IMG/VR virus record: IMGVR_UViG_3300023179_000301
Location: 1-34,018 of that record
DNA from: a virus
Direction: 5' to 3' (one strand)
DNA length: 34,018 nucleotides
Shown: piece after piece, positions 19,667 to 27,653 of the stretch
Layout: each line of letters opens with the position of its first letter
How positions within the stretch are numbered: position 1 is the first letter of the stretch
Made by a program: the position numbers and the translations under genes
The notes under the pieces: generated by a model
What the model was told of the DNA's origin: nothing
The model's input: only the letters and a program-made list of their open reading frames with translations
Databases searched by the model: none

Positions 19667-22600
19667 ATGGCAGTTTCATTTAATGGAGTAACATTGATCG
19701 CTCCGGGAGTTGCATCCTACATTGATGACAATAATGCATCATTTGCAGCGGCACCAAGCACTGGACCTGAAATGGTCATCATGGGCGAAGCTGTTCGAGG
19801 AGAGCCCGGCAAGCCATTGGCTTTCAGCAATTACAATACCGCACTTGCTTATTATGGAGATCCGAATCCTGTAACCAATCCTTTGGTTTTCGGTCTCAAG
19901 AGCGCATTCAATGCTGGCGCTCGAAGAGTCGTTGCTGTGCGAATTGGAAGTCCCATTTCGACAACCACTGCGTCAGGCTCGGCAATTGCCGCAACTGCCT
20001 CGCAGGCAACCGCTACGGTTTCGCCTTTTACCTTGACAGCCAATGAATATGGCTATTATGGAAATTCGTGGCTGTTGTCAATTGCAAACTCCTCCAATGG
20101 CAAAACAGGATACAAGAAAATCACATTGACCCGTGACGGAGGAGTTACTTTCGTGACGGACAATGTCGGGTTGGACCTGCTCAAGCTTGAGTATATCAAC
20201 AATGATGGAATAAATAATGTCGATGCGCAGGCAAACCTTACATCCCGTATTCCAAAGGTAAAGATAACAAGTACGGGAATAGAATTGACAGCAACATCAG
20301 GAAATCCCGCACAAACATCCACAGTAACAGCAGGAAATATTCAAGCTGGAAATACTTACACAATATCTTCTAACCCGACTCCATCAGACATCACAAAGAC
20401 AGCATCAATATCAGGCAACGCATTGGTTGCCAATTCGGCAATGACCATTGGAACAGTCACTGCAGGAACGAACGTGATTGCTGCAACATCGGCAAATACT
20501 GTTTCTCGATCCGGAACTACAGTAACCGGAACAGGATTTAACGGCATTATGACTGAAGGGAAGATTACCTTTGCAGATGGAGGAACATTCACTGGTTCAA
20601 TTTCCGGAACAACGCTGACTGTTACTTCCGCCTCAGCCACTCTTGCCGTAGGCACGGCGTTTGCGGGAACTGGAGTTCTTCCCGGAACAAAGATCAGCGC
20701 ATTCGGAACAGGATCCTCTGGTGTTGGCACATATACATTGCAAGTAAATGGTGTCAGTACCAATCAGACTGTTGCATCAACAACAATGGTGGTTTTTTCA
20801 ACCGTTGCAACGATTGTTAGTGTCACAAATGCGACAACCCTTGTTACGGACACAAGTGGAGCTATTGCATCCTGTCAGTATTCCATCGCTTATGGATGGA
20901 CGTATTCCCTTACTGGGGCATTGGTTTCCAATGGAATAATCAATGCGACTTCTTCAATGAGCGTGGGAACATTATCTACTGCAAATGTTGCCAATAACGG
21001 AATAACGACAAATGGAACATTGTGGACGGTTGTACATGACGGTTCATACAGGTTTCCTCCGGGAACTTTGGTAAAGTTGTCGAACTTTGCTAACACTAGC
21101 TACAATGGTACGTATGTGGTAAACACAAGTGTTTCCAGCACATCATTCACCATTGCAAACACTACCGCTCTTGCAAGCTCCGGAACGGGAACAATAACTG
21201 CTGTTTCTTCCCTCGGTGTAAATCCTGTCATTTCATCGGTAACAGATGACGGCACGGCATACACGATCAATGTAAGTGTTGCGGGGCAGACAGGATATGG
21301 AGTTCCGACTGCGCCCGTTGCTCCCATCGCTGCGGTTGTAGACAAGGTAACGTTTGCCACCAGTTATGCAACAGACTTCAAGTTGCTGGGATCCTCATCT
21401 AACATAGTGGGAACCAGTTTCCTGGCAAGCGCAACAGGAGGAAAGGGAACAGGTCAGGCCACTTTCACAAGTGTTCCTGCAAGCATTCCGGGATCGAATT
21501 TCAAACTGGATGATACTGCCAATCAATTGACGTGGGAAAAATACCCTCAAATTTCTTCACTTATACAAAAAGTCAATCAATGGTATCTTGCAAATGGAAC
21601 TGGTTGGAAATTGTCTCTTTCTTCTGGAAATCCAGACGCTGGATTTTTTTCATCAAATCTTGATTTGCTTGATGAAACAGTAGTGCCAAGCTCTTCAGCA
21701 ATTGTCTTGAATTCCAGTGTTGCAAACACTGTATTGAGAGGCAATGTATATAGCATCTATCAGGCATTGATCGGTAGTGTGTTTTCTCCGCATTTTTCCG
21801 TTGCAAAATCAGGCAATGCGTCATCGATAGCCAACGGAGTGTATGGATTTTCTGGCGCGGTACAGAGTGCAGTTACTGCCTATCATTGGGATTATGCATT
21901 GACACAACTTGAAAGTGCAGAAACGGTTGAAATCATATGTCCTATGACCTCCAATCAAGTCATTCAATCTGCAGTGCTTGAGCATTGCAAGAATATGGCG
22001 CTTCCAACTGGAAAGAAAGAGCGATTTGCGGTTTTTGGTGGTCCGGCAGGACAAAGTGTTACATCTGCCAAAACGCTTGCTTCCTCATTCAATGACAAGC
22101 GCGCCGTTGTTGTCTGGCCGGGAATCAAGGATTATGACAACGATGGCAATCTCGTGACATGGGCTCCGACATATCTCGCTCCATATATTGCTGGCCTTCT
22201 TTATTCGCAGCCAGATCCGTCAATTCCTCTTACAAACAAGACAATCAATGTGTTGGCATTGGAAACAATTGCCAAGCCTGCAGATATTGATGATCTTGTT
22301 TCAAATGGTGTGCTTGCAATAAAGTATGAGGCTTCTCGTGGATTTGTCATCTCCCAGTCATTGACAACATGGACAGGGGATACTCGTTATGTCAGACGTG
22401 AAATCAGCACAATGCGTTGCGCCGATATTGTCATGAAAAATGTCAGGAACTCCGTACGGAATCTTGTTGGATCGCGTCTGGATGGAGCGCTCATTCAAGA
22501 GATCTCCAGAAGAGTAAATACAACTCTTATTTACGCTACAGACGCAGGATTGATTGTTGGCAATGCATCCAATCCGTCGTATAAAAATCTTGATGTTCGC

Positions 22601-22687
22601 ACCGTTGGCGATGCGATATATGTGGATTTCTCAATAAGTCCGGCAATTCCCGCAAATTATCTGCTCATCACCGCACATATTCTATAA
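19667..22687 (+). CDS. Tail sheath protein with a large beta-rich insertion, 1006 aa
   Basis: This is the contractile sheath subunit that surrounds the tube and drives injection. It has a strong ribosome binding site (AGAAGGAGAACAAT). The N-terminal domain has the usual opening (GVTLIAPGVASYI), then MGEAVRGEPGKPL, FGLKSAFNAGARRVVAVRIG, and LTANEYGYYGNSW at about 125-137. The C-terminal domain (about 740-1006) has YLAPYIAGL, GVLAIKYEASRGFVISQSLT, RYVRREISTMRCADIV and SPAIPANYLLIT, which are the typical C-terminal elements. Between about 205 and 600 lies a Ser/Thr/Gly-rich insert containing GTGVLPGTKI (from G334) and YNGTYVV, which are surface beta modules. Most sheath proteins are about 400-700 residues, so this one is unusually long. 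Confidence 0.9.
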   Translation: MAVSFNGVTLIAPGVASYIDDNNASFAAAPSTGPEMVIMGEAVRGEPGKPLAFSNYNTALAYYGDPNPVTNPLVFGLKSAFNAGARRVVAVRIGSPISTTTASGSAIAATASQATATVSPFTLTANEYGYYGNSWLLSIANSSNGKTGYKKITLTRDGGVTFVTDNVGLDLLKLEYINNDGINNVDAQANLTSRIPKVKITSTGIELTATSGNPAQTSTVTAGNIQAGNTYTISSNPTPSDITKTASISGNALVANSAMTIGTVTAGTNVIAATSANTVSRSGTTVTGTGFNGIMTEGKITFADGGTFTGSISGTTLTVTSASATLAVGTAFAGTGVLPGTKISAFGTGSSGVGTYTLQVNGVSTNQTVASTTMVVFSTVATIVSVTNATTLVTDTSGAIASCQYSIAYGWTYSLTGALVSNGIINATSSMSVGTLSTANVANNGITTNGTLWTVVHDGSYRFPPGTLVKLSNFANTSYNGTYVVNTSVSSTSFTIANTTALASSGTGTITAVSSLGVNPVISSVTDDGTAYTINVSVAGQTGYGVPTAPVAPIAAVVDKVTFATSYATDFKLLGSSSNIVGTSFLASATGGKGTGQATFTSVPASIPGSNFKLDDTANQLTWEKYPQISSLIQKVNQWYLANGTGWKLSLSSGNPDAGFFSSNLDLLDETVVPSSSAIVLNSSVANTVLRGNVYSIYQALIGSVFSPHFSVAKSGNASSIANGVYGFSGAVQSAVTAYHWDYALTQLESAETVEIICPMTSNQVIQSAVLEHCKNMALPTGKKERFAVFGGPAGQSVTSAKTLASSFNDKRAVVVWPGIKDYDNDGNLVTWAPTYLAPYIAGLLYSQPDPSIPLTNKTINVLALETIAKPADIDDLVSNGVLAIKYEASRGFVISQSLTTWTGDTRYVRREISTMRCADIVMKNVRNSVRNLVGSRLDGALIQEISRRVNTTLIYATDAGLIVGNASNPSYKNLDVRTVGDAIYVDFSISPAIPANYLLITAHIL

Positions 22688-22702: not shown

Positions 22703-23473
22703 ATGTCAACAACTGCAAAACTTTGGAATACGGGAGTACGCACAGGCGGTAAAGTAGTCATCTACATGGATAATTATCCAATCGCATTTGCACAATCAGC
22801 TCGTTTTCGAGACGATTATGGACTTGAACCGGTAAACGTGATTGGCCAGCTTCAGACCATTGAGTACGTTCCGATGCATGCACGTCACGAAATCACCATT
22901 TCAGTTCTCGTCTTGAGAGGAACGAGTCTTTCAAAATTGGGTCTTGAACCCACAGGAGCTGGATCCTTTGGTCTTCTGCAGGCAGGAGGAGGAAAAAAGA
23001 CACTGGGAGATGGGTTCATGGAAATGGATCCGTCGTCTGCATACTACAACAAGCAAGTGTCAGAGTATGGCAAAACCAGTAAGGATACGGCTGCGGACAA
23101 TGATGACCTCCTTCCTGCGAGTGATGTCGGCACAACAAGAAACATTATTAGTGGGCCAGATTCCAGCAAGGATTTGTCCCAGGTTTGGCGAGTCATTCAT
23201 TCCAAGGTCTTTGACATTGAAGTCAAGGATGCTCAATTGTACACAGGTGCCGAGGCAACTGCCAACGCTTCTGGATCGGAGATAGCTGCAGCTGCTGCAT
23301 CTGCAGGTGCACCTGCGGTAAACAAATGGCCAAGAACAATTGTGAAATACAAAGATTGTTTCTTTGCGGGTGGGGATCTGAATATTGATGCAAATCGCGT
23401 TCTCATGCATAATGTAACGTTTTATGCAAGAGACAAGGATGCCACAAACAGCTCTCTGTTCTCCAGACCTTAA
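22703..23473 (+). CDS. Tail tube protein, 256 aa
   Basis: This is the inner tube subunit stacked inside the sheath. It directly follows the sheath gene with a good ribosome binding site (AAAAAAGGAAAAATGAA), the conserved sheath-tube order of contractile phages. The N-terminal region (GGKVVIYMDNYPIAFAQSARFRD at about 14-36) and strands such as IEYVPMHARHEITISVLVL fit the tube beta-barrel. The middle 90-150 region is a Gly/Asp-rich loop, and the C-terminus closes with YKDCFFAGGDLNIDANRVL. It is followed by a terminator, consistent with an abundant product. It is larger than minimal tubes (about 150-170 residues). Confidence 0.78.
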   Translation: MSTTAKLWNTGVRTGGKVVIYMDNYPIAFAQSARFRDDYGLEPVNVIGQLQTIEYVPMHARHEITISVLVLRGTSLSKLGLEPTGAGSFGLLQAGGGKKTLGDGFMEMDPSSAYYNKQVSEYGKTSKDTAADNDDLLPASDVGTTRNIISGPDSSKDLSQVWRVIHSKVFDIEVKDAQLYTGAEATANASGSEIAAAAASAGAPAVNKWPRTIVKYKDCFFAGGDLNIDANRVLMHNVTFYARDKDATNSSLFSRP

Positions 23474-23552: not shown

Positions 23553-23558
23553 AAGGAG
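23553..23558 (+). promoter_or_regulatory. Ribosome binding site that selects a TTG start
   Basis: AAGGAG (23553-23558) is 7 bases from TTG (23566-23568), the best spacing in this region. The upstream ATG at 23542 would place this site inside the coding sequence and has no ribosome binding site of its own. Confidence 0.65.
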
Positions 23559-23565
23559 AAATACA

Positions 23566-23997
23566 TTGAGCGAAGAAACATCACCTACCATTAATAAAGA
23601 AAGCATTACGGCTGTCATTGCAAAAGCTTCGGAAATTCCAAAGATTTCCTACACAAAAGATTCTATTCCATATGATCCTTCAAAATGCCACGAGATTGAG
23701 GGCCCATGCGGAACAATCGGCGTGGTCAGGGGACATCTTAATCTTCAAAGGACAGCAGGAAAAGCGGTTGCCCTTGCCTTGCAAGGAACAACCGTTGATC
23801 AACGCACATATGAAATGACATGGATGTCTATCATGCTTCAGATGGTTACACAATCTCCCGGATATCTTCCGGCATATTGCAATGGAAATATTGACAAATT
23901 CCTGGAAAACATTTACGAATTTGATGACTTGTCTCATTATTATCGTGAGTGGGAATCATGGAGGGGATCTTTTCGAGTTTCCAGACCCGGCAAGTGA
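23566..23997 (+). CDS. Tail assembly chaperone, upstream frame (gpG-like), 143 aa
   Basis: It lies between tube and tape measure genes, where tail assembly chaperones of the gpG/gpGT type are found. The start is set by AAGGAG before TTG at 23566. The protein is alpha/beta, with a helix ending FDDLSHYYREWESWRG. A second open frame (+1) overlaps the end without a credible start codon or ribosome binding site of its own, as expected for a frameshift partner. The candidate slip site is TCT TTT CGA at 23968-23976, 7 codons before this frame's stop. The short product would predominate and the fused one be minor. The role is known from lambda-like systems and inferred here. Confidence 0.72.
   Translation: MSEETSPTINKESITAVIAKASEIPKISYTKDSIPYDPSKCHEIEGPCGTIGVVRGHLNLQRTAGKAVALALQGTTVDQRTYEMTWMSIMLQMVTQSPGYLPAYCNGNIDKFLENIYEFDDLSHYYREWESWRGSFRVSRPGK
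23968..23976 (+). other. Candidate +1 programmed frameshift site (TCT TTT CGA)
   Basis: In the chaperone frame the codons are TCT TTT CGA. Phe-tRNA on TTT can move one base forward to TTC, and the next codon read becomes GAG in the downstream frame. The same logic is established for influenza PA-X (UCC UUU CGU). The resulting fusion would read ...WRGSF-EFPDPASEK... and be about 319 residues long. A second possible slip at AGA CCC GGC, nearer the stop, is less attractive. Frame geometry excludes the common -1 shift; only +1 or -2 joins the two frames. Confidence 0.55.
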
Positions 23998-24526
23998 AAA
24001 ATTCATCAAGAAACAGGCACTTATTGATGTCCTTTCTTCCGACATTCTTGAGTGGTACAGAATTCAATACAATCTTCCGATAAATGATCCTCGGTTTGTC
24101 GAAGTTTCCGAAGAAGAGGCCATGAAGGATTTTTACAGAAGGCAATATTATCATGAAATACAATGTGGTTTGCGTGATTTTAAAAACCAAAACATAGAAT
24201 TTAACATGCCATCTTTCATATTGTTGAAACAATTCGGAGGAGTGCTTCCTGCTCCCAATGGATTCAAGTACACTGATTCAAACACAATAAGCGCTGAGGA
24301 ACTGACAAGCAAGAAAAACAATAATAAATTTGAAGACGAAAAACTTGAAAATAGCAATTATGTTCCAGAAGAAAGCATCAATCCCAACATTCCTCCTCAT
24401 CTCACAGCTCCAGTCCGGGCTTCACATGGAGGAATGGTAAAAAATGAAGAAAGCGAATTCGGTCTTGATGATGAGGATTTCTGGAAGTGGGTCAAGGAAG
24501 AAGAAGAAAAATCTGAAGAAAGATAG
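23975..24526 (+). CDS. Tail assembly chaperone, downstream frame (T-like extension of a frameshift fusion), 183 codons
   Basis: The frame is open from about 23882, but its first ATG lacks a ribosome binding site. The plausible coding part begins at the candidate slip (GAG at 23975). It continues as EFPDPASEKFIKKQ, a helical middle (LEWYRIQYNLPIN, EEEAMKDFYRRQYYHEI), and a Glu/Asn-rich flexible tail (about 24300-24520). In lambda-type systems the T part of the fusion recruits the tape measure protein, and here the tape measure gene follows 7 bases later. If no shift occurs, this would have to be an independently started protein, for which no start site is seen. Confidence 0.65.
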   Translation, partial: EFPDPASEKFIKKQALIDVLSSDILEWYRIQYNLPINDPRFVEVSEEEAMKDFYRRQYYHEIQCGLRDFKNQNIEFNMPSFILLKQFGGVLPAPNGFKYTDSNTISAEELTSKKNNNKFEDEKLENSNYVPEESINPNIPPHLTAPVRASHGGMVKNEESEFGLDDEDFWKWVKEEEEKSEER

Positions 24527-24533
24527 ATAAATC

Positions 24534-27500
24534 ATGGGCGGATTTTTTCCATTACCTGCGTCAAATCTTACAAAAGGGATTTTGGGTGGTCCTCTTTTGT
24601 CTGCAGGTGTAACTACATCTTTTGGAGCCCAAAGTGTCGGTCTTACTGGAGAAGGGTACGAACGTCAGTTTCGTGAAGGGATCGTTGCAGGAAAAAGCAA
24701 TGATTATGAATTGGGACAATTTTCAAGACAAATTCGCGATTTGGGAATGTCGCTTGTTGATTTTCGCACGAAAGTTCAACAAGTGTCTACTGGACTTGGA
24801 ACGAGCGTTACAGAACATGTGCGGTTTCTTACTTCTTCCATGCGTGAAGTTCAAGGGTTCACTGACAGCATGCAAAACGCATCACGGGTGATCAGGGCTC
24901 GTGATTCCGCGCAGTCTACCATAGAAACGGCTCGTATGACAGGGATGAACCTTACTCAATACGGCCAAAGTGTTGATGCCATGAGGGCGTCAGGATTGAT
25001 TGGAAACATGGGACAACGCCAAGGATATGGCACTACTGAAATAGGATTCAATCAACAATTTGCCCGTGCAATTGGCATGGGAGGATTTGGGGCTTTGCGA
25101 GATCAGGCACTTCAATCTGTTGTAATGGGAGCAATAAGCCAGGTTAGCGCAGGAGGAAGGATGATTGACATTGCCAATTCAATTGGCACGCAAACATCAG
25201 TATTTCAAGCCGCAAGAGGATTTACTCTTCCAACAGGAGCGAAAATCGATCCTGATGCTTCAATGCTTACTTTCGGATTACAATCAATACAAAAATTTGA
25301 CACATCTCTTGTGGCCCGTGGAGCGACGGGATCGATGCAAATTCCAGGAATGATGGTTGCTGGATATGATATGGCTCGGTCTTCATTGATGCAGACAACA
25401 AATGAGGAACTGGATTCTGTAACCAATGAACTGAATCAGTACAAGGGAACAGAAGATCAGAATGCCGCGAAAATAGATGAGTTGAATTCTCGCCGGAAAA
25501 AACTTCTTGACCAGCAAAAAACATACGGCAACATGACAAATCCAATGGCCATCAACAGGGCATTCAGATCTGGCGACAAAAACCTTCAAGGCGAGCTTGT
25601 TGCTTCAATGGCAAAAGCATTTACCGGAAAAGATGATTCAGGATTGCTTGATGATAGCCTTGATAATGACATGATTTTTGGAATCATTTCCCAACAAATG
25701 GGAATAGAAGGTGGCGTTCCTGCTGTTCAGGCAATTCTCAAGGCTCGACAAGCGCGATTGGATCCCAAAAACATAGAGGCTGCCAATCGCACAAAAGCCT
25801 TGACCAGTGGAATGGCAGGATACAAATCCCTTGGCACGATGTTTGGCTCTGACAATACAAATACAGAATACGCAAGACAGATACAAACATCATTGGAGCC
25901 AATATTGAGTTCAGCGGCAACTGGGCAGGACTTCGATACGGAACTTGCAAGTTGGATTGACAGTTCCGGTTTGTACAGTGACGAAAAAACAAAGAATGAA
26001 TTAAAAAGAAAAGTAAGCAGAACACTGAATGCAACAGAATTTAACGACATGGATGAACTCCGAGCAAGAGATAAGCAGCTTAGCATAATATCGGAATTCA
26101 GCAGTGATTCGGAAAGAATTAGAAATGGAGCAGTAAGACCAAATTATGCCGGACAAAATATTCTGACTTCTTCTCAAATTCAAGGAGGAGAATTATACAA
26201 GTCATTTGAAATAATTGGAACGGCAACAAATGAGTTTGTTCAAAATTTTCGTGCTGGAGGACAATCACTTTCTGAAACTGTAGCAAATCTAAACAGAACA
26301 ATAGCCTCCGGCGGCGATGCATTATCCGCAATGATAAAGGTAGTAGGCTCATATGTTGATTTGGGACTCAAGGGAGCATTTGGGGTACCCAAAGCAGCAG
26401 CAGACATTTTGAATCCTGAAGGAGCAATCGCAAAAGGAGTAATAACCAATATCCCTGAACTTATGGGCGTAGCTATGGATGAAGCAAAAATAACGCTCGC
26501 AAGAAGCGTTGCCCCAAAAGATGAAAATAGAATAGATATAAACACAGGAGGTCCTCGCGCATTTGGTGGTCCTGTTTATGGAGGACTTACCGCATCAATG
26601 CAATCAGCAGAAAGTCTTGTTCCCCAGCAAAGATCTTGGAGCATGGCTTCAACGCTTGACGAGGAACATGCATTTGTTCCCAAATATGATTCGTATGTCA
26701 TGAGCACAAAAGATGTTCGAAACAGCATGAAAGATGTTAATTTCACCAAAGAAGAAATTGATCGAATACAAAATACGTATGGAATGGAATGGTATCAAGA
26801 CAGAGCCATACTTGCTTCTGCTGCATCAAGACGAGACAATCAGAGACCCATTGATCCCAGACTTATGTTTGCTCTCATGAAAGAGGAAAGTCACTTTGAC
26901 ACAAATGCAAAAAATGCAGACTCCTTTGCAACGGGTTTGTTTCAAGTCCTTGCAAATTCGGAAGAATTACGGAAGCCATTGCTTGATCCAGAAACAAACA
27001 CTCTCATGGCCGGGAAAATCATGGCTGACAAAATCAGCATGTTTGACAAAATTAGTTACGACAAAGACGGAAACAAACTTGAAATATCTTCATTGACACA
27101 TACGCAAAACAATGAATTCACGATGGGAAAGACCCGAATATTTGATGTCATTGACAAAACTCTTCTATTGTGGCATGGATCATATGCAAAATCAGGAAAG
27201 CCCGGCTTTAGCGATAACGATCCCGAGCATACACTGGCATGGTTGGACAGAATCAGGGACGCTTATAGCGCTCAAGGCGGGAAAAGTCGCGACAGCGGTG
27301 CAAAACTCGATGATCTTTTCTGGGACGAAAATGAAGCAAATGAGTTTTTTAATGCTTCGTATCCAAGACGTGCATATGGAGGACAAATTCTTGGTCGACA
27401 TCCTGTCATTGTCGGAGAAAAAGGGCCTGAGGTTTATGTTCCTGGAGGCAGCGGAAGCATCCTTCCCAATAATTTCCTCGCCAATCTCAACAACCGCGGA

Positions 27501-27653
27501 GAACAGATTGAAAAATCCATTTCCCATAAGATGACTATTGAATTTGTCACTTCATCTGGAGATTCACTCGGAAGCACAGAAATTGATCTTATGTCTGCAA
27601 TCAGTCATTATGCAATACTCAATCCAGCAAAACAGATTGCGAGGATGTCGTGA
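24534..27653 (+). CDS. Tail tape measure protein with a lytic transglycosylase domain, 1039 aa
   Basis: This protein sets tail length and is injected with the DNA. It is helical and Gln/Ser/Met-rich for most of its length, with coiled-coil parts (LDSVTNELNQYKGTED, KIDELNSRRKKLLDQQK at about 295-330). Near 770-830 it has a soluble lytic transglycosylase signature: LMFALMKEESHFD, with E785-S786 as the likely catalytic Glu-Ser pair, and ATGLFQV at 799-805. The C-terminal part has RRAYGGQILGRHPVIVGEKG and PEVYVPGGSGSILP, typical of tape measure C-termini. Using roughly 1.5 angstroms per residue, a tail near 150 nm is inferred. The ribosome binding site is weak; the stop overlaps the next start. 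Confidence 0.87.
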   Translation: MGGFFPLPASNLTKGILGGPLLSAGVTTSFGAQSVGLTGEGYERQFREGIVAGKSNDYELGQFSRQIRDLGMSLVDFRTKVQQVSTGLGTSVTEHVRFLTSSMREVQGFTDSMQNASRVIRARDSAQSTIETARMTGMNLTQYGQSVDAMRASGLIGNMGQRQGYGTTEIGFNQQFARAIGMGGFGALRDQALQSVVMGAISQVSAGGRMIDIANSIGTQTSVFQAARGFTLPTGAKIDPDASMLTFGLQSIQKFDTSLVARGATGSMQIPGMMVAGYDMARSSLMQTTNEELDSVTNELNQYKGTEDQNAAKIDELNSRRKKLLDQQKTYGNMTNPMAINRAFRSGDKNLQGELVASMAKAFTGKDDSGLLDDSLDNDMIFGIISQQMGIEGGVPAVQAILKARQARLDPKNIEAANRTKALTSGMAGYKSLGTMFGSDNTNTEYARQIQTSLEPILSSAATGQDFDTELASWIDSSGLYSDEKTKNELKRKVSRTLNATEFNDMDELRARDKQLSIISEFSSDSERIRNGAVRPNYAGQNILTSSQIQGGELYKSFEIIGTATNEFVQNFRAGGQSLSETVANLNRTIASGGDALSAMIKVVGSYVDLGLKGAFGVPKAAADILNPEGAIAKGVITNIPELMGVAMDEAKITLARSVAPKDENRIDINTGGPRAFGGPVYGGLTASMQSAESLVPQQRSWSMASTLDEEHAFVPKYDSYVMSTKDVRNSMKDVNFTKEEIDRIQNTYGMEWYQDRAILASAASRRDNQRPIDPRLMFALMKEESHFDTNAKNADSFATGLFQVLANSEELRKPLLDPETNTLMAGKIMADKISMFDKISYDKDGNKLEISSLTHTQNNEFTMGKTRIFDVIDKTLLLWHGSYAKSGKPGFSDNDPEHTLAWLDRIRDAYSAQGGKSRDSGAKLDDLFWDENEANEFFNASYPRRAYGGQILGRHPVIVGEKGPEVYVPGGSGSILPNNFLANLNNRGEQIEKSISHKMTIEFVTSSGDSLGSTEIDLMSAISHYAILNPAKQIARMS

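Follow-up and report, generated by a model that had tools for sequence, protein, structure and literature searches.

A probable +1 frameshift at a TTT CGN site in the tail assembly chaperone gene of an uncultured myovirus and its relatives

Two-form tail chaperones and +1 slip sites

The tail assembly chaperone gene of phage lambda follows a short/long logic with two products, G and GT (PMC5009743); it lies before the tape measure gene and uses a −1 shift. A +1 shift at such genes is not new in kind. In the Herelleviridae, gp10.2 and gp10.2-gp11.1 of phage SPO1 are encoded between the tube and tape measure genes, and the depositors annotate the longer form as a +1 slippage product, with the site TGG TAT CAT TCC TTT CGT. 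The +1 product is likewise annotated by the depositors of Adastra, and a product of frameshifting or slippage is entered in the Twillingate and Moonbeam records. For HF1-like haloviruses, which are archaeal myoviruses, a proposal of 2020 places a +1 shift of the chaperone at TTT-CGC, close to the first stop (PMC7230728); our re-check of HF2 reads AAG TTT CGC and agrees with the proposed site.

Outside the phages, a +1 shift at UCC_UUU_CGU in influenza A PA-X has been shown by mass spectrometry (PMC3498833), and no stimulatory signal is apparent there (PMC5009743). The anticodon of Phe-tRNA, GAA, pairs better with UUC than with UUU, an argument made for PA-X (PMC3498833), and UUU_Ynn is stated to be especially prone to +1 shifting in bacteria (PMC5009743).

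Here we describe a locus on a 34-kb fragment of an uncultured tailed virus (IMG/VR record IMGVR_UViG_3300023179_000301, positions 1 to 34,018); this whole stretch was analysed and is called the window in what follows. From sequence comparison, the locus very probably encodes a two-form myovirus tail assembly chaperone of 143 and 319 residues, the longer made by a +1 slip from TTT to TTC. It resembles lambda G/GT in its position before the tape measure gene and in its two-product logic, but has no −1 frame of useful length. It resembles SPO1 in lying between tube and tape measure and in having a Trp codon at −4, and the HF1-like haloviruses in site and shift, though not in the codon before TTT, which is TCT in the window. 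With PA-X it shares the UUU_C slip codon, CGN in the A site and a Ser UCN codon before; PA-X differs in being read by eukaryotic ribosomes from an unrelated gene, and the likeness is one of convergence. The window reads UCU UUU CGA, whereas the exact PA-X sequence UCC UUU CGU is found in SPO1, CampHawk, Sb-1 and LysYB1. A first-pass annotation of this DNA had called the site PA-X-like, which stands for the mechanism and not for descent; it had also taken the +1 shift as a departure from the usual −1, and the shift is indeed +1 but is normal for this phage group and no exception.

The locus in the window

The window carries a myovirus-type head and tail module with head maturation protease, major head protein, sheath and tube genes; all features given below are on the plus strand. 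The tail sheath gene (19667..22687, 1006 aa) matches phrog_279 tail sheath with an E of 4e-36; the protein is unusually long, and the best stretch of the sheath profile is at 727-1004. The tail tube or major tail protein gene (22703..23473, 256 aa) matches phrog_985 (E 6.5e-17), with ∼100 extra residues within the profile match, and its product has tblastn matches to the annotated major tail proteins of Aeromonas phage ST4 and of Dolphis. A 1039-aa gene at 24534..27653 occupies the tape-measure position; it is assigned by position and length, has a weak match to phrog_30701, and has a 51% identical homologue at the same place in the uncultured relative L005. In another relative (L004:5995-6300) the gene after the chaperone opens with tandem Pro-rich repeats, GPNPWTLP / GPNPQTQP. 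The chaperone frames sit between the tube gene and the gene in the tape-measure position, with the coordinates and frames of the first-pass annotation.

The zero frame (23566..23997, 143 aa) starts at TTG 23566 and its TGA ends at 23997. It is preceded by the Shine-Dalgarno sequence AAGGAG (23553..23558), which L002 also has before a TTG. The downstream frame, open between 23819 and 24526, is shifted by +1 against the zero frame. In the −1 frame at the first stop, both the window and its relatives have short open stretches only, and the locus does not conform to the lambda-type X_XXY_YYZ pattern. The slip site at 23968..23976 was read correctly to the base in the first pass: in the zero frame it is TCT (23968-23970), TTT (23971-23973) and CGA (23974-23976), with a Trp codon, TGG, at 23959..23961, four codons 5′ of the slip codon. 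Moving from TTT to TTC (23972-23974) makes the next codons GAG TTT CCA, or EFP. The putative extension comprises 183 aa past the shift (23975..24526) and is assigned by frame, third positions and ST4 homology; the computed fusion length is 319 residues, as had been estimated. The predicted +1 junction is ...WRGSF-EFPDP..., in the peptide GSFEFPDPASEK. The overlap in the window is 58 codons, for which ∼0.03 in-frame TTT CGN are expected by chance; in the window sequence taken alone the site is suggestive against this expectation, and its conservation in the relatives described below puts it at far more than chance.

Gene order and weak, uniform PHROG matches point to a tail assembly chaperone as the product. 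The profile phrog_1038 ‘tail assembly chaperone’ has a weak match in all 12 members (best E 0.006), and phrog_25000 matches 6 of the 12 (best E 0.001). In the cultured relatives, phrog_25000 spans both halves, which meet at the shift point (in ST4 the N-part runs to 124 and the C-part from 123). No match for the whole fusion was found in PHROGs and Pfam, nor in PHROGs for the extension in the window's family. The AlphaFold model of the short form is poor (pLDDT 50), and its order, a beta hairpin ahead of helices, is no more than suggestive. Among solved structures, a search yielded chance matches only.

Relatives and codon choice at the site

Searching the viral collection with the upstream half as query yielded three, then twelve contigs, comprising eleven distinct relatives of the window and one near-duplicate (L017, close to L016). 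The downstream half alone returned the same twelve, as did a second scan with a degenerate DNA pattern, which allowed TTT/TTC and CGN/AGR and thereby avoided selection for the codons of interest. In 12/12 contigs the halves occur together in the +1 relation, with TCN TTT CGN at equivalent codons and a +1-frame open reading frame of 180-233 residues past the site; with all three query types, none of the 12 has both halves in one frame, the arrangement that would have counted against the first-pass reading. The first frame of L016 reads TCG TTT CGT TAA, so that the shift must occur at or before that point. Differences among the relatives pile up at third positions of the +1 frame in the extension, which supports its translation in that frame. 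A search of bacterial genomes found no relatives of the window chaperone.

DNA and protein searches of GenBank phages with the window chaperone and tape measure gave no direct match, and the tail tube protein served as the link to ST4. The +1 frame after the first chaperone ORF of ST4 encodes DFWYRRQYRLTINDPRF, clearly related to LEWYRIQYNLPINDPRF of the window; for the first portion of the +1-frame part, hhalign gives 94% and E 8e-8. The first frame of ST4 has TCC TTT CGC. Like the window, the ST4/Dolphis/PHB04 group (Aeromonas, Pseudomonas and Bordetella phages) has the +1 overlap, with TCC TTT CGC (also in Dolphis/Jeremy) or TCC TTT CGA (PHB04); unlike the window, it has a shorter extension (about 95-105 aa) and no Trp at −4, and its halves are annotated as separate hypothetical proteins. 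ST4 and its relatives bridge the window and SPO1 groups. Between these two, the N-parts show only a remote relationship (hhalign 55%, E 1e-4), and for the C-parts the comparison gave no direct link. SPO1's own peptide patterns found no relatives of its chaperone in the viral collection.

In all, the slip site is found at the equivalent place in the tail genes of ∼30 other phages, SPO1 and further well-known laboratory phages among them. SPO1, Sb-1 and LysYB1 have TCC TTT CGT, Touem01 TCT TTT CGC, fHe-Yen8-01 CGA TTT CGA, phiT5282EW ACA TTT CGC and Mecenats66 CGA TTT CGC; TTT CGN also lies in the +1 overlap of Adastra, EalM-132, Goe26, LP-039, MDA2, A9, Lpa804, Lalka8, phiAGATE, Cumys, CampHawk and Twillingate. 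The cultured myophages with such an overlap include Listeria, Enterococcus, Brochothrix, Lactobacillus and Thermus phages. With an overlap of only four codons in Sb-1, LP-039, MDA2 and A9, the site in these phages is forced. The sole exception among the cultured relatives examined is Bacillus phage Moonbeam (L057:900-905), whose TTT CAA indicates that CGN is not strictly required, since the re-pairing C is kept and the A-site codon is not always Arg; its depositors annotate slippage at the last T of TTT. Bacteroides phage SJC03 (L035:21509-21910), which has a related capsid, shows neither an overlapping frame nor TTT CGN where its candidate chaperone gene ends.

Many Herelleviridae records label the +1 half ‘RNA polymerase’ or ‘RNA polymerase beta subunit’ (phrog_1316), for example L049:5935-6291, L051:5957-6429, L052:4492-5028, L053:2135-2602 and L055:1167-1439. 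To judge by frame, position and profile, this half is the C-terminal part of the chaperone fusion.

Given the relatedness of these sequences and the conservation of Phe-Arg at the protein level, codon choice is the more telling measure. In the window and the eleven distinct relatives (n = 12), the slip Phe is TTT in 12/12, while another invariant Phe, 24 codons upstream, uses TTC in 7 sequences and TTT in 5. CGN encodes the Arg that follows TTT in every case, whereas the invariant Arg at the third codon before TTT is divided between AGR (6) and CGA (6). Similarly, the Ser before TTT is always TCN (12/12), and another invariant Ser is AGY in 6/12. Failure of the slip codons to be conserved had been named in the first pass as grounds for rejection; they are constant where nearby conserved Phe and Arg codons vary, a synonymous constraint beyond amino-acid conservation. 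TTT is retained even where it makes up only 6-23% of Phe codons (ST4, Dolphis, PHB04, Touem01, Lalka8 and HF2). Over 23 representatives the product of the TTT fractions is ∼10^-9.4 and that of the CGN fractions among Arg codons 10^-4.5, figures that ignore relatedness and are guides rather than p-values. The number of in-frame TTT CGN expected per overlap is 0.001-0.05.

Alternative readings, mechanism and significance

A −2 shift, known for the tail chaperones of phage Mu (PMC5009743), is permitted by the frame arithmetic: it would lead into the same frame and add one residue. However, several different codons precede TTT (TCT, TCG, TCA, TCC, ACA, ACC, ACG, CGA or GCG), so that Phe-tRNA could not re-pair two bases back, and the C after TTT, which only a +1 shift requires, is invariant. 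We consider a −2 shift improbable on these grounds, which favour the +1 slip of the first-pass annotation. The two differ in their products: −2 would put an extra Phe at the window junction, GSFFEFPDPASEK, and the predicted tryptic junction of SPO1 would be AYDNWYHSF-VNQVNPEK for +1 and, with the extra Phe, HSFFVNQVNPEK for −2.

Somewhat less probable again is that the downstream frame is a gene of its own, translated from an internal ATG, GTG or TTG start or through re-initiation once the first stop has been reached. A separate CDS is annotated downstream in many records, and the window has candidate starts in this frame at ATG 23882, TTG 23891, TTG 23921, ATG 23924 and GTG 23945. None of these five is preceded by a Shine-Dalgarno-like sequence, however, and they are not conserved among the relatives. 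Moreover, L012 and seven cultured phages (Mecenats66, EalM-132, Sb-1, LP-039, MDA2, A9 and Lpa804) have no ATG, GTG or TTG over the stretch of the +1 frame that runs from the preceding stop to 30 nt (in the cultured phages ∼30 nt) past the site, and the sole +1-frame start of L014 is a GTG overlapping the site. Several relatives thus have a second frame without its own start, joined to the first by a shift near the first stop, which bears out the first-pass view that this frame has no usable start and runs against independent initiation. The least probable reading, an indel introduced in sequencing or assembly, or else slippage during transcription of the T run CTTTTC, could appeal to the four consecutive T of the window but is already contradicted by comparison: independent contigs and phage isolates sequenced by many different groups show the same frame relation, and most of the relatives have three T only (TCG TTT CGT).

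What comparison shows is the +1 relation and the site, and that several relatives have no independent start; from these we infer the slippage itself, its rate and the chaperone role. On this evidence Phe-tRNA almost certainly slips by +1, from UUU to UUC, to give the 319-residue fusion. The majority of ribosomes would terminate at 23997, which yields the short form of 143 residues. A minority would pause with peptidyl-tRNA-Phe on TTT (23971-23973) and CGA waiting in the A site; Phe-tRNA would move one base forward to TTC, GAG would be decoded next, and translation would continue to 24526, giving the 319-residue ...WRGSF-EFPDP... product. By analogy with lambda G/GT, the short form may act as a coat on the tape measure protein, and the extended one may recruit tube subunits.

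A forward slip with CGN in the A site would require only a C after UUU, and the zero/+1 overlap contains just such an arrangement, an in-frame UUU_C that places CGN in the A site. No conserved 3′ stimulatory RNA structure appears to be needed: in a search for one, the consensus fold reached only −3.1 kcal/mol and no 3′ helix was predicted. In 21/30 sequences the fourth codon before TTT encodes Trp, the same spacing as noted at a rhizobial ICE +1 site (PMC5009743); it is possible that this residue makes a nascent-peptide contribution, or it may simply be part of the protein. The sequence GGAGGGG occurs just before the slip codon in the window (23959-23967) and in L006, and GGAGG in L015; such an internal Shine-Dalgarno-like sequence was considered as an RF2-like stimulator and rejected, as it is absent in most relatives. 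A search of the literature brought up neither peptides nor reporter or ribosome-profiling results for the chaperone sites, and to our knowledge there are none for those listed here.

Within partial coverage of the literature, no paper was found that names UUU_CGN as a shared tail-chaperone site of bacterial phages. What is new, as far as this search shows, is a UUU_CGN site common to many bacterial myovirus groups and identical in some to that of PA-X. We think it likely that UUU_C(GN) is a widespread and probably ancestral +1 recoding site of myovirus chaperones, often with Trp four codons upstream, in several Herelleviridae lineages and in proteobacterial, Thermus and uncultured phages, matched in haloviruses. 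If so, one +1 slip motif would be common to viruses of bacteria, archaea and eukaryotes. Internal +1 sites are difficult to spot (PMC5009743), and annotation software had no general +1 motif as of the PRFect paper (PMC10885494); UUU_CGN in widely separated phages provides a large natural data set for one. The annotation of the downstream half, including the ‘RNA polymerase beta subunit’ of many Herelleviridae records, would be corrected. The broader pattern merits a proper survey, and easy laboratory models exist in SPO1 in Bacillus subtilis and Dolphis in Pseudomonas putida, which would permit a direct test of the features that set the +1 rate in bacteria.
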